41,875 nt of DNA, taken from Clostridia bacterium (lineage in GTDB: Bacteria; Bacillota; Clostridia; Christensenellales; Borkfalkiaceae). The stretch covers positions 1-41,875 of the forward strand of contig JAFTPU010000006.1 in NCBI GenBank assembly GCA_017463105.1, given 5' to 3'. This document shows, piece after piece, positions 23,032 through 39,872 of this stretch (positions are counted from its first letter, which is position 1; each line of letters opens with the position of its first letter). The position numbers were made by a program, and so were the translations under genes. Below the pieces are notes generated by a model. That model was not told the DNA's origin, made no database searches, and was given only the letters and a program-made list of their open reading frames with translations.

Positions 23032-24765
23032 ATGGCGTTTTGTTCTTTTTCCAAGGACTGCGACGGCAATTCTTACGTGACGGTCGAAAACAAATTTATC
23101 ACCAAATATCTGCCCGAAGCAGACGGTTTTGCCGTAAAGGTCTATCTTTACGGTTTATATCTTTGCGAAAACGCCGATTCCGACTTCGGCTTGAAATCGA
23201 TGGCGGAGGTGCTTAAAACCACGGAAACGAAAATTGCGGAAGCCTTCGAATTTTGGGAGGATTACGACCTTGTGCAAGTGGTCTCCAAAGCCCCCTTCGC
23301 CGTACAGTATCTGCCCGTACGTTCGGCTGTCGGCAGACCGAAAAGAGTGCGCTATGAACAATACGCCGATTTCAACAAGGAATTGCAACGCAAAATGCAG
23401 AAGGTGGGCAAGTTCGTTTCCTCGGGCGACTATCTCAAATATATGCGTTTTCTGGAAGAAAATGCCATACAGCCGCAGGCGCTTTTGCTGGTCGCCGAAT
23501 ACTGTATCAACAAAAAGGGCGACGCGGTGTCCCCCTCCTATATTTTTAATAAAGCGAAAAAACTTTTGGCGGGCGGCGCAAGCACCTATGAACAGGTGGA
23601 ACGCGAGCTGTCCAATTATAACGAACACGAAAGCGAGCTCGTCGCCGTGCTCGCCGCGCTCGGCGGTTATCAGCGCGCCCCCGACGAAACCGATTATGCC
23701 CTCTATCGCAAATGGACGGAAACGCTCGGTTTCACAAAGGACGGCGTGATCGCCGCGGCGAAAAAGTCCAAACGCGGGAGCATGACCGCGCTCGAGATCA
23801 CGCTCGAGGATCTGTACGAAAAGGGCAAGACGGACGCAAGCGAGGTCGAAACGTATCTCGCCGAGCGGGAAACGCTGGCGAACCTGACCTTCCGTATCGC
23901 GCGGAAGCTGGGCGTGAAAGTGAGCAACCCCGCCACCTATATCGACGAGTACGTGGAAAAATGGTTCACCTACGGTTTCGAGGACGGCTCCCTTCTCGAT
24001 ATCGCACTGTTCTGTTTAAAGACGGAGCGCGGGAGCTTCGATTCGATGAACGCGATCGTCAACCGACTTTTCGCGAACGGGATCGTAACGAAAGAAAGCG
24101 TAAAGGCGTTTTTGAAGGAAAAGAACGACGAGCTGAAGCTGTTTGAAAAGATCAGGGATATTTGCGGAACGATCCGCAAGAACGCGACGAACGTTTCCCT
24201 TATCCGCACTTGGCGGGATTGGAATTTCAGCGACGAGATGATCCTCGAAGCGGCAAAGCGGAGCGCGACCAGCTCGAATCCCGTGCCGTATATGAATAAA
24301 ATTTTATCCGATTGGAAGCAAGCGGAAATATTCCAAGTGAAAAATATTCCCGACGCCGCGCCGAGCGCAAGCAATACGGCGGGCGCGGCGCGCGGTTACG
24401 TCAGCCCCGCGATCGAGGCGGCGAATGCTAAGGCGGACAGAGAACGCTATTATGCGTTGCTTAGAGAAAAAGCGCAATCGCGCGCGGATAAATACGTGCG
24501 GAAAGCCAACGGCAACGTACGTTTCAAGGAACTGACGGCAGAGCTTTCCACTATGGAAATTTCGCTCGCGAAGGCGGAGGTATTCGATCCGAAAAAACTC
24601 CCCGCGCTTCTCGAGAAAAAGACCTCGCTACTCGGCGAACGCAGGGAATTACTTGCGGAAATGGGCATTGCGGAAGAAGATCTGTTGCCGAAATTCACGT
24701 GCAAGAAATGTTCGGACACGGGATTTTTGAAAAACGGCGTCGCTTGCGATTGCTATAAAAAATAA
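23032..24765 (+). CDS. DnaD-domain primosome protein fused to a DnaI/DnaC-type N-terminal zinc domain
   Basis: The N-terminal part (to about 110) looks like a winged-helix DnaD/DnaB-type initiator domain (LPEADGFAVKVYLYGLYLCE). Two DnaD C-terminal-like helical units follow, near 195-270 and 285-345 (YRKWTETLGFTKDGVIAAAK; VEKWFTYGFEDGSLLDIALF), and a third at 390-425 (LIRTWRDWNFSDEMILEAAK, then YMNKILSDWK). Residues about 455-577 resemble the N-terminal domain of the helicase loader DnaI/DnaC: a helical region and then FTCKKCSDTGFL..GVACDC, a four-cysteine zinc site. The AAA+ ATPase half of a loader is absent; the frame stops 6 nt before a tRNA-derived repeat. The ATG has a GGAGG site. A role in loading DnaB is inferred. 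Confidence 0.85.
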   Translation: MAFCSFSKDCDGNSYVTVENKFITKYLPEADGFAVKVYLYGLYLCENADSDFGLKSMAEVLKTTETKIAEAFEFWEDYDLVQVVSKAPFAVQYLPVRSAVGRPKRVRYEQYADFNKELQRKMQKVGKFVSSGDYLKYMRFLEENAIQPQALLLVAEYCINKKGDAVSPSYIFNKAKKLLAGGASTYEQVERELSNYNEHESELVAVLAALGGYQRAPDETDYALYRKWTETLGFTKDGVIAAAKKSKRGSMTALEITLEDLYEKGKTDASEVETYLAERETLANLTFRIARKLGVKVSNPATYIDEYVEKWFTYGFEDGSLLDIALFCLKTERGSFDSMNAIVNRLFANGIVTKESVKAFLKEKNDELKLFEKIRDICGTIRKNATNVSLIRTWRDWNFSDEMILEAAKRSATSSNPVPYMNKILSDWKQAEIFQVKNIPDAAPSASNTAGAARGYVSPAIEAANAKADRERYYALLREKAQSRADKYVRKANGNVRFKELTAELSTMEISLAKAEVFDPKKLPALLEKKTSLLGERRELLAEMGIAEEDLLPKFTCKKCSDTGFLKNGVACDCYKK

Positions 24766-24771
24766 ACGAAA

Positions 24772-24821
24772 AGAAGAGGATTCGAACCTCCGGATACGTT
24801 CCCGCATCACACGATTTCCAA
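24772..24821. repeat. Left attachment repeat (50 bp, 3' half of tRNA-Ser)
   Basis: Identical over 50 bp to 29738-29787 inside the complete tRNA-Ser gene, in the same orientation. It covers the anticodon loop, variable arm and T arm but stops before the acceptor end; the bases beyond (TTTCG on the minus strand) do not restore an acceptor stem. Confidence 0.85.
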
Positions 24822-24857
24822 GCTTTAAATAGCTTACGGAAAAAGTGTGATTTTTTT
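24806..24857 (+). terminator. Terminator of the dnaD-like gene, half built from the tRNA repeat
   Basis: ATCACAC-gat-TTCC-AAGCT, loop TTAAAT, AGCTT-ac-GGAA-aaa-GTGTGAT, then TTTTTT. The left arm up to 24821 is tRNA-Ser sequence; the right arm is not. It lies 40 nt after the stop codon and reads rightward. Confidence 0.75.
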
Positions 24858-24996
24858 CGTGGGCAGGCGGAGCACACCCTTAAACCGCCTTATAAAATTA
24901 GGTCAGGTTTTGCGTAGCCACTGCCATAAAATGCGCATAATACGTCGTGGCTGGCGACGTTGAAAAAAATATAAATAATCAAGTGGTTGTGGTGCG

Positions 24997-25766
24997 CGTT
25001 GCGCCGAGAGGCGCAAGCAGATTTACATAATTCCATACGTCGGGCGTGCAGACGGTGAGGAATTATGACATAAACGAAAGCGGAGGCGGGAGAAGTCAAG
25101 CCGATTGCGTTTTATGGTTTTGCCTTGTCAAAGGCAGAACCACGCCCCAAAACAGAGAGCCTGAAAAAGTCAAGCAAGGAGCGCGGCGTAAGCCGTGCAG
25201 GTCGAAAAAAATCCCCCTCGCAAGGGCGAGGGGCAGAGACACCGCGCGGGAAGTTAGTTGCATGGCAACTCACTTGACGTGAAGTGTGCCGCCGTAGGCG
25301 TAAAAAAGCAGGGGGGACGGGTTAAGGCACGGTATGCACTCTTACCCCTTCCCCGTGGCGGGCGTTCCCGTGGGCGCACAGACGAACAGGAGGCGTGCGT
25401 GCGGCGCGTGTGCGTCTAATAGCTTTGCGTATTTACCCGACACAGTCGGGCATTTCGCGGAAAAACTTTTTTTCCTGTTGTTTGGCATACGATCAGGCAG
25501 GAGCGGTGCGGTAAATTCGGGGGCGGATTTGCAACGACGCGCAGTTGCGCGGACTGCAAGCCGCCCGAAAACCCGCTTGCCCGTGTGCCCGACACAGGAA
25601 AAAACCCGCGAAATGCGGGGCGGGGTAAGCCGTATAAATAATGTCGCGGGAAGCGCGCGCCGTCTCCTTTTGCTAAAATTTTTGCTTGTCGAAAATTTTG
25701 GCACGCCGAATTTTTGCCCGAAAACCCCAAAAATTTTTTTGGAATTTGGGGGAAGCTCGCGCCGAT
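24997..25766 (+). ncRNA. Candidate large structured non-coding RNA of the island
   Basis: About 770 nt with no credible gene but many strong stems. Examples on the plus strand: TTGCGCC-GAGA-GGCGCAA (24999-25016, GNRA loop); CATAATTCC with GGAATTATG around CGTC/GACG (25026-25067); TGGTTTTGCCTT-GTCA-AAGGCAGAACCA in continuous pairing (25115-25142, one G-U); CCCCTCGC-AAGG-GCGAGGGG (25214-25233); AGTTGC-ATG-GCAACT (25256-25270); CCCGAC-ACA-GTCGGG (25436-25450); a three-tier stem GGGCGG/TTGCA/CGCGC at 25521-25566; CCCGC-GAAAT-GCGGG (25605-25619). Open frames here lack ribosome sites and show repetitive Arg/Ser/Pro composition. Size and setting recall large phage-associated RNAs such as GOLLD and ROOL, often near tRNA genes, but I cannot match a consensus by eye. 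Ends are approximate. A structured DNA origin is the main alternative. Confidence 0.45.
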
Positions 25767-25795
25767 CAGCGCGCACGGTACCGCAAAAGAGCGCA

Positions 25796-25826
25796 AAAAT
25801 GCCCCCGTTCATCTCCGAACGGGGGC
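25796..25826 (-). terminator. Terminator of the toxin-antitoxin operon
   Basis: Perfect 10-bp stem GCCCCCGTTC/GAACGGGGGC with loop GGAGAT on the minus strand, followed by ATTTTTGCGC. It lies 11 nt after the toxin stop. A weak T tract (GTAATTTGTTTT) also follows on the plus strand, so it may end the putative RNA too. Confidence 0.8.
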
Positions 25827-25836
25827 GTAATTTGTT

Positions 25837-26121
25837 TTAGCTGTCGTATACGTTTTTCCTGTGTCCTACTTCCAAGATAAAAATAGTAACGATCTTTTCC
25901 TCGATTTTGGCTATCAAGCGGTAATCTCCTATCCTATACCGCCACTGTCCCGAACGGTTGGCGACCAACGCCTTGCCGTGCTGGCGTGGATTTTCGCAAT
26001 TTTCAAGGTTTTTTGCAATCCAATTTGTAATGATAATAAAGCGTTGCTTATCCAATTTATGCATTTGCTTCATTGCGCGTTCGGTAAATCTTACCGTATA
26101 CCGTACCGTTTCATTCCCCAT
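25837..26121 (-). CDS. RelE/ParE-superfamily toxin
   Basis: A 94-aa protein with the RelE layout: VRYTVRFTERAMKQMHKLDK, then a helix with IITNWIAKNL, the middle loop NPRQHGKALVANRSGQWRYR, IGDYRLIAKIEEKIVTIFIL, and the ending EVGHRKNVYDS. Family members are ribosome-dependent mRNA endonucleases or gyrase poisons; the basic residues in HGKALV...WRYRIGDYR and GHRKNVY are the usual active-site region. Its start overlaps the antitoxin stop by 11 nt, giving tight coupling. It probably stabilises the island. RelE versus ParE activity is undecided. Confidence 0.92.
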   Translation of the reverse strand: MGNETVRYTVRFTERAMKQMHKLDKQRFIIITNWIAKNLENCENPRQHGKALVANRSGQWRYRIGDYRLIAKIEEKIVTIFILEVGHRKNVYDS

Positions 26122-26329
26122 AACGCGCTATGACCTCTTGCAAGCTGTAAGTTTTAGGGTTTTGGGCAAATTCTGCCGTTGCTTCCTCGTAGGCTCTCAA
26201 ATCGAATTCGTCCTCGATACGCTCCATAACGATTTTACGGATATATTCCGAAACGTTTAAACCGTACAGCCCCGCAAACTCTTTGATCAATTCTTGCTCT
26301 TTTTCGTTTACTCGCATTGTAATAGACAT
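26111..26329 (-). CDS. Ribbon-helix-helix antitoxin (RelB/DUF6290-like)
   Basis: A 72-aa protein beginning MSITMRVNEKEQELIKEFAG, a ribbon-helix-helix DNA-binding unit, then YGLNVSEYIRKIVMERIEDE and a C-terminal toxin-neutralising region ending LQEVIARYGE. The frame is open ten codons further upstream, but the start at 26329 has AGGAGGGG at ideal spacing and the conserved N-terminus. It should bind its own promoter together with the toxin: two ATTGTAA half-sites flank the -10 box just upstream. It is the first gene of the two-gene operon. Confidence 0.9.
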   Translation of the reverse strand: MSITMRVNEKEQELIKEFAGLYGLNVSEYIRKIVMERIEDEFDLRAYEEATAEFAQNPKTYSLQEVIARYGE

Positions 26330-26358
26330 AATAACCCCTCCTTTCTTATTGTAAGACA

Positions 26359-26387
26359 ATTGTAATACATAATATGCAATTTGTCAA
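26359..26387 (-). promoter_or_regulatory. Promoter/operator of the toxin-antitoxin operon
   Basis: Minus strand TTGACA (26387-26382), 17-nt spacer, TACAAT (26364-26359). On the plus strand ATTGTAA occurs at 26348-26354 and 26359-26365, the likely antitoxin sites overlapping the -10 and start region. Confidence 0.8.
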
Positions 26388-26414
26388 GGGGTTTTTGCAA
26401 AATTTTTTAAAATT

Positions 26415-26783
26415 TCACATTATTCGTCCTTTTCTATCGCCTTGCTCTTCAAGCCGTATTTCTGCGTATGTCGATACGTGCAAGCGGTTTTTTATATCCA
26501 ATTTTCTATACACTTCGACAAGCCGCCGCTCATCTTCGGTTATGGCAAAGCCTTCTTTTTGTAGCGTTATCACGCCGAAATCGTCTTCACGCCCCACTAA
26601 ATAATCTATGGAACATTCGAAAAAGTCCGCCATCAGGGCAACGGTCTCGATATTTGGTTCAGTTCTTCCGCATTCCCAATCACATATACTGCTATTATTA
26701 GTTTTGAGAATATCAGCAAGCTGTTTTTGACTTAAATTGTTATTTTTGCGGAGTTCTTTTAACCGCTCTCTAAATATCTTCAT
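26415..26783 (-). CDS. XRE-family repressor of the island
   Basis: A 122-aa protein. The N-terminal helix-turn-helix is clear: FRERLKELRKNNNLSQKQLA, then DILKTNNSSICDWECGRTEP, then NIETVALMADFFECSIDYLV. The C-terminal 55 residues (TEDERRLVEVYRKLDIKNRL) form the short helical dimerisation region seen in many phage and ICE repressors; there is no LexA-type protease or ImmA-type partner. It reads away from the integrase operon, and three similar operators lie in the gap of about 220 bp between them, so it likely represses the rightward promoter and its own. Start is taken at 26783 (KIFRERLKEL), three codons inside the open frame. Confidence 0.92.
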   Translation of the reverse strand: MKIFRERLKELRKNNNLSQKQLADILKTNNSSICDWECGRTEPNIETVALMADFFECSIDYLVGREDDFGVITLQKEGFAITEDERRLVEVYRKLDIKNRLHVSTYAEIRLEEQGDRKGRIM

Positions 26784-26793
26784 ATAAATCATT

Positions 26794-26871
26794 TTAGGGA
26801 TTTTACCTAAAAATAGTTGACATTAGGGAAAATACCGATTATAATATTTAATAATTAGGGATTATCCCTAT
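26794..26871. promoter_or_regulatory. Three XRE operators around the rightward promoter
   Basis: Three 17-bp sites: TTAGGGATTTTACCTAA (26794-26810), TTAGGGAAAATACCGAT (26823-26839) and TTAGGGATTATCCCTAT (26855-26871). The third contains a perfect 15-bp palindrome. Centres are 29 and 32 bp apart, about three helix turns. The middle site fills the promoter spacer exactly. Confidence 0.75.
26817..26845 (+). promoter_or_regulatory. Rightward promoter of the island operon
   Basis: Perfect consensus: TTGACA (26817-26822), 17-nt spacer, TATAAT (26840-26845). The -10 lies in ATTATAAT, which is nearly symmetrical, so a leftward promoter for the repressor may share it. Confidence 0.9.
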
Positions 26872-26949
26872 TTTCTCCCAAGTACAATTTAAGCGTATCA
26901 AAGCGGCGAGCGACCGAAAGCGCAGCCGAAGAGATAAAAAACAGAGAAA

Positions 26950-26993
26950 AACAGCTTTTAAGGTTTGGGAGAGCCTTTAAAGGCTGTTTTTTT
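26950..26993 (+). terminator. Leader terminator (attenuator) of the island operon
   Basis: AACAGCTTTTAA pairs with TTAAAGGCTGTT around a GC-containing loop, directly followed by TTTTTTT; GGAGGTG, the ribosome site of the first gene, begins 2 nt after the T tract. It lies about 100 nt after the promoter with no other promoter in between. Confidence 0.75.
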
Positions 26994-27006
26994 CGGAGGT
27001 GTAGAA

Positions 27007-27276
27007 ATGGAGCAAGAGAAGGAAAGGCGTTTACTTACGCGCGCGGACTGTTTGGAACGGTTGCGGGAGTGCTGGGAAGAAGCGGACTTGAAAAAGGGCG
27101 AATTAACGCAGGCGGGGAAGGAGTTGATAGAGCTTAATCTTTCCATTATCCAAACGTGGGAGCGCATCGAAGAGACCGACGAATGCAAGGATCACGTCGA
27201 CGTGATCGGCTTTCATTATGACGAAAGCGACGAGGAAGACGAGGACGAGGACAACGAAAGCGAGGAAGACGAGTGA
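27007..27276 (+). CDS. Small acidic protein, first gene of the island operon
   Basis: An 89-aa protein of unknown function. Residues 1-55 are helical and charged (RLLTRADCLERLRECWEEAD, KKGELTQAGKELIELNLSII), and the last 25 are almost only Asp, Glu, Ser and Asn. The start at 27007 is fixed by TTCGGAGGTGTAGAA; the longer open frame upstream runs through the terminator hairpin and is rejected. Its stop overlaps the next start by one base (TGATG). The acidic tail could mimic nucleic acid, as in phage-encoded inhibitors, but this is speculation. Confidence 0.7.
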   Translation: MEQEKERRLLTRADCLERLRECWEEADLKKGELTQAGKELIELNLSIIQTWERIEETDECKDHVDVIGFHYDESDEEDEDEDNESEEDE

Positions 27277-27746
27277 TGACGGACGGCGCAGCTGTAAAAG
27301 GATTTGAAGTTGATTTCGAGCAATTGGTTGAAGCGGCACGCCAAAGGAAGAGGGAAAAAGCGGCGAAAAACTTTTCGCTTGTCGAGGAGATCCCCGCGGG
27401 GGAGAGCCTCACGTGGGCGGTAACCCCCGAACAGGTGGCGAGAATTAACGCCAGAAATCGGGAAGCGTTGGACGGATTTTATTTTGCCAACCTGCGGCGG
27501 CTTACTTTTAGCGCGTACCGATTTATGAGAAATAACGCATACTTGCAGTCGGTTATATCATACGAGGATTTATTGCAGCAAGTGTATTTTGATTTACGGA
27601 CGGGTGTATTAAAGTTGCGCCCGTTTGATAGCGCGATATCGTCGGCGGTGTATCATAGTTTTCGATATGCAGCGGTAGGCGGAGACGACGAGGTATACAT
27701 ATATCAAGTAAAGGAGAAGCGGAAATGTCAAAAAGCGGAGAATTAA
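27276..27746 (+). CDS. Sigma-70-like region 2 protein (first half of a split sigma factor)
   Basis: A 156-aa protein. Residues about 70-140 read FYFANLRRLTFSAYRFMRNN, then ISYEDLLQQVYFDLRTGVLK, then a segment ending VYHSFRYAA. The YEDLLQQVYFDL stretch is close to the DLIQEG..GL helix of sigma region 2.2, and the neighbouring Arg/aromatic-rich helices fit regions 2.1-2.4. No region 4 helix-turn-helix is present; it is found in the next gene. The N-terminal 65 residues are unrecognised. The start ATG at 27276 overlaps the previous stop. The assignment is by eye and needs a profile search. Confidence 0.55.
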   Translation: MTDGAAVKGFEVDFEQLVEAARQRKREKAAKNFSLVEEIPAGESLTWAVTPEQVARINARNREALDGFYFANLRRLTFSAYRFMRNNAYLQSVISYEDLLQQVYFDLRTGVLKLRPFDSAISSAVYHSFRYAAVGGDDEVYIYQVKEKRKCQKAEN

Positions 27747-28753
27747 GAATACTTCGATACGGTTACAGTGTAGACGCGCCGATAAACTATCGCCACCGCA
27801 CGGGCGACAGTGAGGGCGACGGCGGGAGTATGTTAGATTTATACGTACAGGAAAAGGGCGTTGAGGAAGTCCTCTTCGAAGCGGACGACGAAACGGCGAA
27901 GGCGGTTTTCCTGAAAGGGTTTTCGGGGTATCTGCGCAAGGTATTTTCCAAAACGGAGCGAGAGTTTTTAAAGCGTTTGATGTCTGGTAACGAGAAATTG
28001 CAAGACGTCGGGCGCGCGATGGGCGTTGACTGGTTTAAATATATGCAGGCGATACAGCGGAAAGCGTACAAGAAGACCTTACCGCTTTTGAAGCTGTGCG
28101 AGCTGTCGGGGTGGTCGCGTGCGGAAGAGTTTACAACGCAAGTATTACGTCGTTTGTCTTTAATGGAAGACGGCGCGATGTTGGAAGATTTTTTACCGCA
28201 AAAAGCGCACCGTGCGCGCGTTCGGGAGGCGTTGAAGCAAGCGAAAGCCGACAACGCCGCCTTGACGGTAAGAGAAAAGAAAGCTTATAATGCTTTATGG
28301 CGTGAAAAGCACCGTGAGCAAGTAAAGGCATATAGTGAAAAGCACCGCGAAAAGAAAAAGTCTTACTACGAAGCGCACCGCGAAGAAATAAAAGCAACTC
28401 GACGAGCTTATCGAAAAGCAAACCGCGAAAAAATAAAAGCATATAACAAAGCGTATCGTGAAGCGCACCGCGAAGAAATAAAAGCAAATAAAAAAATATA
28501 TCGCGAGGTAAACCTTGAAGAGAGGAAAAAATATCATAGGGTATACAACGCAGCGCACCGTGAAGAAATAAACGCACAAAACAAAGTATACAGAGAGACC
28601 CACCGCGAAGAGCTGAGAGAATACCGCGAAGCCCGCCGCGAAGAGATGAAAGCATATCAAAAGGCATACCGTGCGCGCAAGAAGGCGGAGAAGCTTGCCG
28701 CCATTGAGGCGGCGCGCGCTGTTCAGGGCGCAAGCGCGGAGGGAAATGTATGA
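27725..28753 (+). CDS. Sigma-70-like region 3/4 protein with long basic repeat tail
   Basis: A 342-aa protein. RYGYSVDAPINYRHRTGD near the start resembles the region 3 entry (SLDAPI) of sigma factors, and LRKVFSKTEREFLKRLMSGN plus LQDVGRAMGVDWFKYMQAIQ forms a region 4-type helix-turn-helix (about residues 72-118). Residues about 190-330 are some ten degenerate 11-15-residue repeats, e.g. YREAHREEIKA, strongly basic and helical, of the kind seen in phage DNA-binding proteins. Overlaps the region 2 gene by 22 nt in the -1 frame, with its own AAGGAG site; overlaps the integrase start by 4 nt. With the preceding gene it could rebuild one sigma factor for island transcription. Confidence 0.6.
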   Translation: MSKSGELRILRYGYSVDAPINYRHRTGDSEGDGGSMLDLYVQEKGVEEVLFEADDETAKAVFLKGFSGYLRKVFSKTEREFLKRLMSGNEKLQDVGRAMGVDWFKYMQAIQRKAYKKTLPLLKLCELSGWSRAEEFTTQVLRRLSLMEDGAMLEDFLPQKAHRARVREALKQAKADNAALTVREKKAYNALWREKHREQVKAYSEKHREKKKSYYEAHREEIKATRRAYRKANREKIKAYNKAYREAHREEIKANKKIYREVNLEERKKYHRVYNAAHREEINAQNKVYRETHREELREYREARREEMKAYQKAYRARKKAEKLAAIEAARAVQGASAEGNV

Positions 28754-29622
28754 ACGGGAAACAATGGACACTCGGCGAGTGGCTATGGGAATGGTACGAA
28801 ATTTACAAACGCCCGAACCTTGCGCCCTATTCCCTGCGGAATATCGAGCAAATGATACGGTTGCATATATCCGAACCGCTGAAACGGTTGCAGCTTGCCG
28901 AGCTGGACGCGTACACAATCGAGCGCGAGCTTGTCAAGCTGGGTAGAACGCGGACGGCGGTTTATGCCCGTCAAGTCCTCTTTTCCGCTATTTCTAAGGC
29001 GGAAAAGTTGGGGTTTATCTCAAAAAACGTAATGGAAAGCGTAGATAAAATACGGTATAAAAAGCAACCGAGCAAGGCGTTGACGTTATCTGAACAGGCG
29101 GATTTTTTGCGCGCGCTGGAAAGCTCGCGCTATAAATGGCTTATGATGTTTTATATCCATACGGGGGTACGCAGGACGGAAGCCTTAACGATCGAATGGG
29201 CGGACGTAGACTATGACGGCAAAACGATTTTAATAAAAGGAACAAAAACCGAAGAAAGCTACCGTTATATACCGATGACGGAAGAAGTAGCGGCGATTTT
29301 GGAGGGACAGCGGCGACAAAACAAGCAGGAAAGGAAGATCCGAAAGAGCGGGCAATATCGAGGCGCGCCCTCTTCCGTGGTGTTTCCCTTTTCGAGCGAG
29401 CAGACAAGCCGAGCCTTTAAAGCTCTTTGTCCCGCCCATCACTTGCACGATCTGCGCCATACGTTTATAACGCGCTGCGCGGAAAGCGGTGTTAATATTT
29501 CCGTGTGTCAGCAGATAGTCGGGCACGCGACGGCAGATATGACGTTAAACGTGTATACGCACGTAATGGACGAATTCAAGAAAAAGGAGATGCAAAAATT
29601 TACAATAAACCCGAAAATTTGA
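28750..29622 (+). CDS. int: Tyrosine site-specific integrase
   Basis: A 290-aa recombinase of the lambda-integrase family that would insert and excise the island at tRNA-Ser. The N-terminal SAM-like core-binding domain spans about 1-95 (EWYEIYKRPNLAPYSLRNIE). Catalytic residues in order: Arg in HTGVRRTEAL (about 140), Lys in LIKGTKTEESYRYIP, His and Arg in HDLRHTFITR, His in IVGHATADMTL and the nucleophile Tyr in NVYTHVMDEF. It lacks an N-terminal arm-binding domain of the AP2 type, so it is a short form. It overlaps the preceding gene by 4 nt and ends 108 nt before the tRNA. No excisionase is recognisable. Confidence 0.95.
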   Translation: MNGKQWTLGEWLWEWYEIYKRPNLAPYSLRNIEQMIRLHISEPLKRLQLAELDAYTIERELVKLGRTRTAVYARQVLFSAISKAEKLGFISKNVMESVDKIRYKKQPSKALTLSEQADFLRALESSRYKWLMMFYIHTGVRRTEALTIEWADVDYDGKTILIKGTKTEESYRYIPMTEEVAAILEGQRRQNKQERKIRKSGQYRGAPSSVVFPFSSEQTSRAFKALCPAHHLHDLRHTFITRCAESGVNISVCQQIVGHATADMTLNVYTHVMDEFKKKEMQKFTINPKI

Positions 29623-29682
29623 CGGGTTTTATGATAATGACAATAAGCCGAAAAATCAAGTGATGGGGAAGCAATCCCCGCC

Positions 29683-29723
29683 AAAAAAGAAAAAGACCCC
29701 CGAAACAATTTCCGAAAGTCTTT
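29683..29723 (-). terminator. Terminator downstream of tRNA-Ser, supplied by the island
   Basis: Minus strand AAAGACTTTCG pairs with CGGGGGTCTTT using three U-G pairs that exist only on this strand, followed by TTCTTTTTT. It lies 7 nt past the tRNA 3' end. Confidence 0.65.
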
Positions 29724-29729
29724 CAATTT

Positions 29730-29819
29730 TGGCGCAGAGAAGAGGATTCGAACCTCCGGATACGTTCCCGCATCACACGATTTCCAATCGTGCTCCTTAA
29801 ACCGCTCAGACATCTCTGC
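29730..29819 (-). tRNA. tRNA-Ser(GGA), integration target
   Basis: Minus-strand 90-nt gene with encoded CCA. Acceptor GCAGAGA (29819-29813) pairs with TCTCTGC (29740-29734), discriminator G, CCA at 29732-29730. The anticodon loop GATTGGAAATC gives GGA, and the class II variable arm and T-loop GGTTCGAATCC are present. Its 3' half is the right attachment repeat; the final 8 bases lie outside the repeat and so come with the island side. Confidence 0.96.
29738..29787. repeat. Right attachment repeat inside tRNA-Ser
   Basis: Perfect 50-bp match to 24772-24821, offset 4966 bp. The repeat ends in the anticodon loop, a typical crossover zone for tyrosine integrases. Confidence 0.85.
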
Positions 29820-37913: not shown

Positions 37914-39041
37914 TTATTCGAGCTTCGTGCCGCAATTGGTACAGAATTTACCGCCTGCGGGTGCGGGAGAGCCGCATTCGGGACAGAATCTCTGTTTGGG
38001 CTCCTGTTTCTGTCCGCAATTAGGGCAGAATTTCGCGCCCGCCGCGATCGGCTGACCGCAACCCGAGCAAACGGAAGCCACCGCGACCGATTGCTGTGCG
38101 TTCGGCTGTCCTGCCGCGCGCATTTCGTTGGTCATCTGACCGACGTCGCGAGCAACGCCCACGCCGACGCCCATGCCGACGCCCATATTGATAAGACCGC
38201 CCGCCGCGCCTTCGTTCTTCGCCGCGTTTTCGAGCACGTCGAAGCGGCGTTCGTCGTAATAGGAATACCCTTCGACCGAACGTGCGTACGCTTTCGCTTC
38301 GCTCATCATACGCACCTTCTGCGCCTCGAGCTCCATCTCCGTCGTCATTTCCAGCCGTCTTTCCTTCGCTTCGCGGAGCTTGACGAGGTCCTGATCGCCC
38401 GCAAGAATGGAATTGATCTCGAAATGCTCGATCTCGATACCGAGATCCTCGACCTTCGCGTTCATCTTCGCCTGTACGCGCGCGCCCAGCTCGCTGAGCT
38501 TGGTCGCGATCTCGAGGATACTCATGCCCTGTTCGACGATAGCGGAGGCGATCGTTTCCTTGATCGAGGACATCATCGCGCCCTTGATCGCACGGCGTAC
38601 GGTGTCTACGTTGACTTCGCGGAGCTGACCGACCACCTTTACGACGAAACGGCGGGAATCCTTGATACGGATACCCGTCTGACCGTTCGAACGCACGTTG
38701 ATAAGCAAATGGTATTTGGGGTCTTCCAACGCGATAGGCATATCCGTACCCCAAAGGATATCGAGTACGCTGACCTTATTGATGAAGAAAACTTCGCAAG
38801 GAAAAGGCGTCGCCCCGCCGAATATTTTACCGAAAATGCGTTTTAAGAAGGGCAGATTTTCGGTGTCGAGCGTATGTTTGCCCGCCGCGAACAGATCGAG
38901 CGCCTGTCCGTTTTTGAAGAACAACGCTTCCTGCGATTCGTATACGATAAGCTGAGATTTCGTGTTGAAATCTTCTATGTAGCTTTTAAAGACCAATTGA
39001 TCGTTCGTCATTTCCTGACTGATAACGTTTAACTGTGCCAT
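37914..39041 (-). CDS. SPFH-domain protein with C-terminal double zinc ribbon (YdjI-like)
   Basis: Residues about 20-235 are an SPFH (band 7) domain of the YdjI/virion-core-like group: QLIVYESQEALFFKNGQALD, ADP-like loops DTENLPFLKRIFGK, and the helical stretch MSSIKETIASAIVEQGMSIL. A Gly/Val/Met-rich linker (GGLINMGVGMGVGVGVARDV) leads to two zinc ribbons: CSGCGQ...CPNCGQ and CPECGS...CTNCGT. Such proteins assemble into large membrane-associated oligomers and in Bacillus YdjI acts with phage-shock-like stress proteins. The frame is open to 39095, but the start at 39041 has GGGAGGGG and the family N-terminus AQLNVI. Transcribed from the promoter at 39159-39187 through paired leader hairpins. 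Confidence 0.9.
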   Translation of the reverse strand: MAQLNVISQEMTNDQLVFKSYIEDFNTKSQLIVYESQEALFFKNGQALDLFAAGKHTLDTENLPFLKRIFGKIFGGATPFPCEVFFINKVSVLDILWGTDMPIALEDPKYHLLINVRSNGQTGIRIKDSRRFVVKVVGQLREVNVDTVRRAIKGAMMSSIKETIASAIVEQGMSILEIATKLSELGARVQAKMNAKVEDLGIEIEHFEINSILAGDQDLVKLREAKERRLEMTTEMELEAQKVRMMSEAKAYARSVEGYSYYDERRFDVLENAAKNEGAAGGLINMGVGMGVGVGVARDVGQMTNEMRAAGQPNAQQSVAVASVCSGCGQPIAAGAKFCPNCGQKQEPKQRFCPECGSPAPAGGKFCTNCGTKLE

Positions 39042-39076
39042 TGGAAACCCCTCCCTGTTTTTTTCGATAATATCTT

Positions 39077-39112
39077 TGTTTGCCGAATACGGCAAACAGC
39101 CCCGCGGGGCTG
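39077..39112 (-). promoter_or_regulatory. Paired leader hairpins before the SPFH gene
   Basis: Minus strand: CAGCCCCGCGGGGCTG (39112-39097) overlapping by two bases TGTTTGCCG-tatt-CGGCAAACA (39098-39077). Same order, spacing and 14-mer as at 32975-33010. On the plus strand TTTTTTT follows, so it might also stop rightward transcripts. Confidence 0.7.
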
Positions 39113-39158
39113 TTTTTTTCGTTAAAATTCCCGCGTGGTCGTTATGGTTATTTTCTTA

Positions 39159-39187
39159 ATTATACAATATCATATCTTAAAAGTCAA
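39159..39187 (-). promoter_or_regulatory. Promoter of the SPFH operon
   Basis: Minus strand TTGACT (39187-39182), 17-nt spacer, TATAAT (39164-39159). Predicted start near 39152 and a leader of about 110 nt. Between 39190 and 39329 I see no gene. Confidence 0.85.
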
Positions 39188-39329
39188 CAGAATACAACGT
39201 TTTTTTACACACAACGAACACATTTTTTTCAAAAAAGGCTTCCTTTGCTCTTTCGTTGACAAACCGATGAGTACCCTTCTCATCGCCGCAAGCGTGCTGT
39301 TGATCCCGTATTCGAGCAGACTGTAAAAG

Positions 39330-39365
39330 AAAACGGCGTTTCGGAAAATTCCGAAACGCCGTTTT
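39330..39365 (-). terminator. Terminator of the solute-binding protein operon
   Basis: AAAACGGCGTTTCGGAA and its exact reverse complement around a 2-nt centre (AA) give a stem of up to 16 bp, 12 nt after the stop at 39378, with TTTTCTTTTAC following on the minus strand. Confidence 0.85.
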
Positions 39366-39377
39366 CGCAAAAGGGAG

Positions 39378-39872
39378 TCAATACATTTCTTTTAACGTTT
39401 TGGGCTCGTTTTTGGAAACGTAGCAAAACAAAACGGGAATAGTAACGACGAGCAGGGACAGGAGGGTGAACGCCCCTTCTCTTTTCACGTTAAACCGTCG
39501 ATAGATTTTCTTTGCCGACAACACCAGCGTGACGTAGGCAAGAAAGGCACAAAATACGACGATTACCGTCATGATCTGTTTCAAAGGACCTGCCGAAAGC
39601 TCGGGCAGGTTTTTCTGTCCCCAAAAGGTATACGCGCAAGCCGCCAAGATCACGGCGGTAAGGGCGATCAGCATTCCGTGCATTTTACGCACGGGGATAC
39701 TGAGTACGGTAAAGCCGCCCGTCATGCGGTTTATCACGTAAAACGCATAGAAGGGAATAAAGCATTTTTTCCAGTCCTTTTCTCCGCACTTTCTCGCGGC
39801 TGCCGCCGCGCCGATCGCGTACAGCTCGACGAACGCGAGTACGCCGAGCGCAATATAAAGAAGTTTACTCAT
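39378..39872 (-). CDS. Four-helix membrane protein
   Basis: A 164-aa hydrophobic protein with segments at about 5-26 (LYIALGVLAFVELYAIGAAA), 68-86 (MLIALTAVILAACAYTF), 100-121 (IMTVIVVFCAFLAYVTLVLS) and 135-153 (AFTLLSLLVVTIPVLFCYV). The first loop WKKCFIPFYAFYVINRMTGG is reminiscent of small DUF5684/YIP-like membrane proteins of Clostridia, but I cannot name the family. Its ATG overlaps the stop of the solute-binding protein gene by one base (TAATG), so it is co-translated. It does not look like an ABC permease (no EAA loop). Confidence 0.8.
   Translation of the reverse strand: MSKLLYIALGVLAFVELYAIGAAAAARKCGEKDWKKCFIPFYAFYVINRMTGGFTVLSIPVRKMHGMLIALTAVILAACAYTFWGQKNLPELSAGPLKQIMTVIVVFCAFLAYVTLVLSAKKIYRRFNVKREGAFTLLSLLVVTIPVLFCYVSKNEPKTLKEMY

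Follow-up and report, generated by a model that had tools for sequence, protein, structure and literature searches.

Comparative sequence analysis of the window (the whole 41,875-nucleotide stretch of clostridial DNA examined here) indicates that it contains a conserved folded module of small mobile elements, A-B, which is unmatched to a known family. The core of the module is non-coding and spans roughly 440 bases (24866-25303; stem P0, block A and block B). By our searches it is present in six copies, in one clostridial genus only, and five of these share one integrase lineage. Such elements may use A-B to spread, as a signal of a new kind in RNA or single-stranded DNA. We tentatively favour, at somewhat less than an even chance, the reading that A-B stands in for a rep gene and, folded as a plus strand of either RNA or ssDNA, acts in propagating the element after excision, with block C, a conserved block separate from A-B, as the tie to a phage-like helper.

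The hairpin-dense stretch that contains A-B is the non-coding left end of a 5-kb integrated element (24767-29787) at the 3' end of a tRNA-Ser gene. With an integrase and att repeats at the tRNA, the window element has the features by which an integrative mobile element is recognized, and a second copy of the tRNA end is present in 9 of 12 further related loci tested. The stretch occurs once in the own genome (G000; 1.29 Mb, 80% complete). The att repeats enclose a ParE/DUF6290 pair, an XRE protein, another three ORFs and, adjoining the tRNA, a tyrosine integrase:

24767-24821, no strand assigned: left attachment copy at the left border, a 55-nt repeat of the tRNA-Ser 3' end with 96% identity to 29733-29787 in the tRNA gene
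25837-26121, minus strand: ParE-like toxin, cargo (PF05016)
26111-26359, minus strand: DUF6290 antitoxin-like protein, cargo (PF19807)
26415-26792, minus strand: XRE-type repressor-like protein (PF01381)
26965-27276, plus strand: orf4, acidic protein with a relative in locus L028
27273-27746, plus strand: orf5, resembling sigma region 2 by eye, conserved in 4 elements (alignment A5), no Pfam match
27725-28753, plus strand: orf6, whose start resembles sigma region 4 by eye, with charged repeats (alignment A4; 45-bp tandem repeats), no Pfam match
28750-29622, plus strand: tyrosine integrase (PF00589)
29730-29819, minus strand: tRNA-Ser(GGA), the integration target

By eye, orf5 and orf6 together (27273-28753) have the look of a split sigma factor, with regions 2 and 4; the tandem repeats of orf6 are at 28370-28503. 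The ParE/DUF6290 pair (25837-26359) is 93-94% identical to that of L027/L010, compared with 77% for the integrase, and the cargo was therefore possibly exchanged more recently than the element backbone.

The interval 24997-25766, singled out in the preliminary description as a hairpin-dense candidate for a large non-coding RNA, has a plus-strand minimum free energy (MFE) of -337 kcal/mol, compared to -282.9 kcal/mol in 20 dinucleotide shuffles (z = -6.7), and the minus strand folds as strongly against its own 20 shuffles (z = -7.15). It contains 14 of the 16 stems with at least 7 Watson-Crick pairs found in 24860-25840, in line with the at least eight strong stems described there. The hairpin-dense stretch thus held up, whereas its borders shifted: the conserved unit starts about 130 nt upstream, with P0 (24866-24889) and block A (24892-24996), and the covarying part ends near 25303. 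Calculated by part with 60 shuffles, z was -5.6 (-5.62) on the plus strand and -4.3 on the minus strand for 24866-25303, -4.4 and -3.8 for 25304-25636, and -3.1 on both strands for 25637-25836. As controls, 27 pieces of 438 nt were taken elsewhere in the 41.8-kb window (20 shuffles each, against 60 for the module). Their median z was -0.25; a single one, 39001-39438, came near the module's value (z = -5.18), so that low folding energy alone is not unique to the module. Over the six homologous regions, simple Watson-Crick stems add up to 680 bp, whereas 30 rounds of shuffling averaged 378 and peaked at 447. The parts of the module and the sequence that follows it are:

24866-24889, plus strand: P0, stem GGCGG/CCGCC, set by eye from six upstream sequences and uncounted statistically
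24892-24996, plus strand: block A, with GGTCAGG, stems P1 and P2 and an A-rich tail ending AATCAAGTG (model R1)
24911-24916/24932-24937, plus strand: stem P1 of block A
24942-24947/24955-24960, plus strand: stem P2 of block A, with a possible loop-loop pairing by eye
24999-25016, plus strand: hp1, loop GAGA of GNRA type (stem search, sequences compared)
25026-25067, plus strand: stem CATAATTCC/GGAATTATG (helix 7; 5 of 9 pairs changed on both sides)
25115-25142, plus strand: hp3, a 12-bp helix with one internal T.G pair and no two-sided change in four aligned copies
25183-25196, plus strand: hp4 (helix 9; two-sided changes in 2 of 5 pairs, with 85% of cells paired)
25209-25303, plus strand: late block B (model R2), with hp5 (25215-25232), the long stem P6 (25239-25287) and hp7 (25290-25300), the last outside the model pairs of R2
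25304-25627, plus strand: variable hairpin-rich part that differs between elements (alignment; z = -4.4 for 25304-25636)
25628-25712, plus strand: block C, TATAAA-like, with a GC hairpin (CGCGGGAAGCGCG) and a second hairpin, common with prophage-like elements

At the place of P0, the relatives seemingly have different stems (by eye). The GAGA loop is found at 25006-25009 and a GAAA-containing loop at 25717-25727, both as first described; the T.G pair of hp3 had been taken to close the helix and is internal to it. Repeats with the motif GTCAAGC (25083-25101 and 25157-25175) flank hp3, and similar pairs are seen in L027 and L013; together they possibly form a paired binding site.

To the extent that a consensus drawn from the sequences on which it is counted allows, covariation indicates that the structure of A-B is under selection. 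In alignment A1 (the window, L027, L026 and L013), the consensus has 76 pairs in 11 helices, of which 22 changed on both sides, compared to a shuffle mean of 7.7; neither this count nor the covariation score was reached by any of 500 shuffles, and slid controls of the structure gave at most 4 two-sided pairs, over which a structure derived from the same sequences has an advantage. Helix 3 (P2) is invariant in A1 and shows two-sided changes once L015 is added (alignment A2). In block A, 6 of 11 pairs changed on both sides (A2), which 1 of 500 shuffles reaches, and in late block B 9 of 26 (alignment A7), which none of 500 reaches; all of these counts come from 4 to 6 sequences. The conclusion of selection is drawn from the 22 two-sided pairs together with matches outside the building set of a model. 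Model R2, built from four copies, was searched against 18 loci and matched L012 (E = 3 × 10−4; the same element as L028) and L015 (E = 2.4 × 10−3), neither of which had been used to build it. At E 0.5 that search gave nothing else. Both matches lie downstream of block A, so that all six copies have block A and a late-B match in the same order.

A search with model R1 gave 6 clear copies in 398 genomes of the family and 3 weak matches that we take for chance: one inside a gene (L045), presumably for dephospho-CoA kinase, one intergenic among unrelated genes (L044), and one rejected from the alignment only (L046). Among 396 genomes of the order, a draw that holds few of this genus, R1 found only the copy of the own genome at E 0.003. 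Above 40 genomes these searches used strict filters, with which distant copies may be missed. Since R1 was built from the six copies, independent support comes from the DNA of the window stretch by itself, searched against 301 genomes of the family. It matched in 8 genomes, own included: G222 (L027; 2.6 × 10−87), G162 (L026; 8.2 × 10−66), G299 (L028; 6.7 × 10−14), G182 (1.8 × 10−10), G207 (6.8 × 10−6), G157 (6.1 × 10−7, block C only) and G287, the last a chance match to a terminator, as was that of L016. Further related elements were found by integrase searches. R2 gave matches at E ≤ 0.5 in 82 of the 398 genomes; beyond the 4 builders and G299 we regard these as chance, because E is calculated per genome and 398 were searched, and 8 of those loci had no R1 match at E 1. 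Records of phages (50,697) and plasmids (72,556) contained no similar DNA at E 0.01. The exact P2 17-mer occurs in 17 viral contigs, of which R1 matched 15, only over P2, and these were rejected as chance; a longer pattern gave 0 matches.

The strand that folds, in single-stranded form, is probably the plus strand. Its consensus energy is -87.5, compared to -68.2 for the minus strand, and among internal mismatches in stems chosen without strand bias there were 14 G.T, 3 A.C and 21 others (binomial p = 0.013, a value that is too small because related copies share some mismatches), compared to a G.T:A.C ratio of 142:131 in shuffles. Energy and mismatches (G.T over A.C, 14:3) both favour the plus strand. 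Against it, the 52 pairs predicted on both strands have 7 G.U and 6 A.C, with no strand preference, a count that we set aside because selecting pairs seen on both strands removes the asymmetry. A strand control with RNase P gave few mismatches, with 3 of 8 loci badly cut.

Whether that strand would act as RNA or as DNA bears on the main rival, according to which the mobile element makes A-B as a structured non-coding RNA that acts in trans, much like ROOL or GOLLD but of a new family, and that has no replication role. We consider this reading possible but rather doubtful. The loops lean to RNA: in the four copies with an identified hp4 loop (GTAA in the window, GCAA in L027, GCAA in L026, GAAA in L028) all are GNRA and vary only at N and R, as do the hp1 loops in two of the six copies, the L026 version having GAAA and two G.T pairs in its stem. 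GNNA loops are favourable in DNA too. The excess of G.T over A.C on the plus strand and the conserved linkers between stems inside A-B also agree with an RNA, and tblastx hits fell in all six frames with none favoured across relatives, as would be expected of a non-coding sequence. Two of the outcomes that would have counted against the preliminary description, an absence of covariation among homologues and protein conservation in one frame, were thus not seen. A folded plus-strand ssDNA signal would explain most of the same data, and hp4 is not formed in L013 (nor was it identified in L015), hp1 being replaced by a different hairpin in L027 (an insertion) and in L013, with none identified in L028 and L015. 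A promoter scan found no conserved plus-strand promoter before block A and one weak minus-strand candidate (24966-24937), and comparison by eye of the six upstream sequences before block A showed no common promoter, which also counts against a trans-acting RNA.

Large hairpin-rich non-coding RNAs of the GOLLD and ROOL type are described in mobile or prophage-like elements near a tRNA gene (PMC12286853), and the stretch in the window, large, hairpin-rich, non-coding and in a mobile element near a tRNA gene, has a similar setting. The likeness proposed at the outset therefore holds for a mobile element at a tRNA gene, but here the tRNA is the integration site of a 5-kb element and not part of a phage tRNA island. 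Neither model matched at gathering score: in Rfam searches of the stretch and the loci of six relatives, tRNA was the only family to do so, in keeping with the preliminary description, which claimed no identity with a known class. At E ≤ 10, 24760-25850 gave ten weak matches to unrelated families, all far below gathering, with GOLLD and ROOL absent among them. A trans-acting RNA also leaves the absence of a rep gene in all six carriers unexplained.

That absence was assessed with 12 Rep queries, which matched in 0 of 6 A-B loci, compared to 18 of 23 other related loci (Fisher p = 0.00097); 12 of the 18 matches are self-matches, as the Reps served as queries, and the loci, several of them contig ends, are not independent. 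With five of the six A-B copies in one integrase lineage, the six do not stand for six independent events. The window element, one of the six, had no match to the 12 queries, so that no Rep of its own, the mark of a rolling-circle element, is recognised in it. Five tRNA-Ser elements without A-B (L029, L030, L032, L034 and L035) carry a PF23343 Rep. Prophage-like loci are of two kinds: in one, a DNA-binding protein of ~360 aa follows a winged-helix gene (7 loci, and L107 by similarity), and in the other a PF23343 Rep lies downstream of an ATPase gene (5 of 5 tested: L105, L106, L108, L089 and the viral contig L113, with one ORF between ATPase and Rep in L106). Five loci have neither Rep nor A-B (L098, L109, L110, L111 and L112), and no Rep-bearing element carrying A-B was found. 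Four of the Rep-bearing elements (L029, L030, L032 and L035) are 2.5-3 kb long and contain little beyond the Rep and an integrase, with an XRE-like ORF at the left end in three.

Block C recurs in the satellites L028, L026 and L027 and was not identified in L015. It is also present in 8 prophage-like loci (L013, L014 and L099-L104), namely the ATPase loci with a winged-helix gene that were examined out of 19 ATPase loci, with the match set by eye for most. There it lies between a gene for a membrane P-loop ATPase of ~740 aa and a winged-helix gene of ~80 aa, with other small ORFs possibly in between, for example in L101. BLAST with the window sequence alone matched L014 (2.3 × 10−10), L102 (0.013) and a stretch of L013 in the equivalent place (0.013). 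In 57 genomes of the genus, a 23-nt block C pattern with up to 2 mismatches gave three matches, all in context (window, G299 and G157); at 3 mismatches there were 9 more, one of them in context (G167, which is L102), compared to 4 for the reversed control. The satellite L027 has a winged-helix homologue after its block C (blastp 2.9 × 10−8 to L103, the best of a nine-sequence set). The order is A, B, C in the satellites and C, winged-helix gene, A, B in L013, the sole prophage-like locus found with A-B. There A-B sits where 7 related loci have the gene for the ~360-aa DNA-binding protein (in L014 after one more ORF), although L013 has uncertain borders and may have lost its rep.

From the HUH Rep and from secreted proteins that are pIII-like by eye (a signal peptide and a C-terminal membrane segment), we infer that the ATPase elements are filamentous-phage-like; one of them, the 7.8-kb L104, is flanked by copies of a tRNA-Pro end. 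Inoviruses whose ATPase has N-terminal membrane segments have been described (Roux et al., PMC6813254). Comparison of the ATPase with Pfam, with PDB sequences and, by hhalign, with the pI-like Orf8 of phage B5 and the Zot-like protein of L034 gave no link (0.6% probability for the pI-like protein, each hhalign comparison being of single sequences and thus a weak test). An unannotated 'Bacteriophage sp.' record from human faeces (MT835493.1, L156) contains an ATPase relative (33.7%). The ATPase family occurs in 21 of the 57 genus genomes, own included, and accompanies A-B in 4 of 6 A-B genomes, compared to 17 of 51 other genus genomes, a difference that is not convincing.

These elements suggest a further reading, that of a phage-type intergenic region: in the virion strand of filamentous-phage-like elements, the stretch would serve as packaging signal and as origin of the complementary strand, and the window element would be a helper-using satellite. 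It accords with the position of block C between ATPase and DNA-binding or replication genes, with a sister branch of the ATPase elements in which the ATPase is followed downstream by an HUH Rep of the ORF2/G2P family (5 of 5 tested), and with the presence in the own genome of another element with the ~740-aa membrane ATPase (L098; G000:C14:155397-157526), a possible helper. In 16 ATPase loci, however, the best R1 match (E = 0.72) was not convincing, and a search of 11 with R2 gave nothing at E 0.5, which argues that A-B is not the signal of the ATPase helpers, and the profile comparison that tied the ATPase to neither the B5 nor the L034 protein, weak as a test, points the same way. We regard this reading as unlikely.

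Inovirus satellites such as RS1 of CTXphi and pDolos are known (PMC11389934). Like inovirus prophages and such satellites, the window element is small and tRNA-integrated, elements related to it carry an HUH Rep of the ORF2/G2P family, and a non-coding block, block C, is common to small and larger elements; it differs in its lack of a recognised Rep and in an ATPase family that neither Pfam nor hhalign links to pI/Zot.

Two other readings are very improbable. If the stretch were accessory DNA with arm sites for the integrase, placed at the end of the element, it would account for AATCAAGTG near both ends of the window element, but with up to 1 mismatch this sequence is missing from the right end in the other 4 of 5 A-B elements at tRNA-Ser, and L013, next to which a remnant of a serine recombinase was all that was seen, has it as well. 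If the stretch consisted of terminators and GC-rich repeats and did nothing more, the 9 terminator-like sites in 24760-26420 (2.7 in shuffles) would fit, but this reading, already unlikely from the covariation, sits poorly with the conserved internal linkers and with hp5, whose stem covaries while the T-tract of its minus-strand terminator is not kept in relatives.

In the reading that we prefer, propagation by A-B in place of a rep gene, A-B would act in cis on the excised circle, either as a structured primer RNA made from the circle or as an ssDNA origin on the displaced strand, and block C would be a signal linking the element to a phage-like helper. For propagation we count the 0 of 6 A-B loci with a Rep and the location of A-B in L013 at the place of the DNA-binding gene, and for the role of block C its ATPase/winged-helix position in 8 loci and the winged-helix homologue in L027. 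Against propagation we count the restriction to one genus and one main integrase lineage, the Rep self-matches, the 7:6 mismatches and the borders of L013. In ColE1-type RNA-primed origins, a structured RNA of several hundred nt stands in place of a Rep protein, a likeness to A-B that we treat as an analogy only. Rather improbable, in our estimate, is the version in which A-B is a protein-free replication module. As a structured RNA, perhaps produced from the circle after excision, it would prime or control the replication of small integrase elements, having taken over from replication genes of both the HUH type and the winged-helix type in elements of two kinds.

Literature searches of titles and abstract openings found no paper describing A-B. 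If A-B is a new class of conserved folds in rep-less elements, it would offer a way into the replication and movement of 'orphan' islands and into the sharing of signals between small-phage satellites and their helpers, and the A-B alignments and models make the class directly testable.
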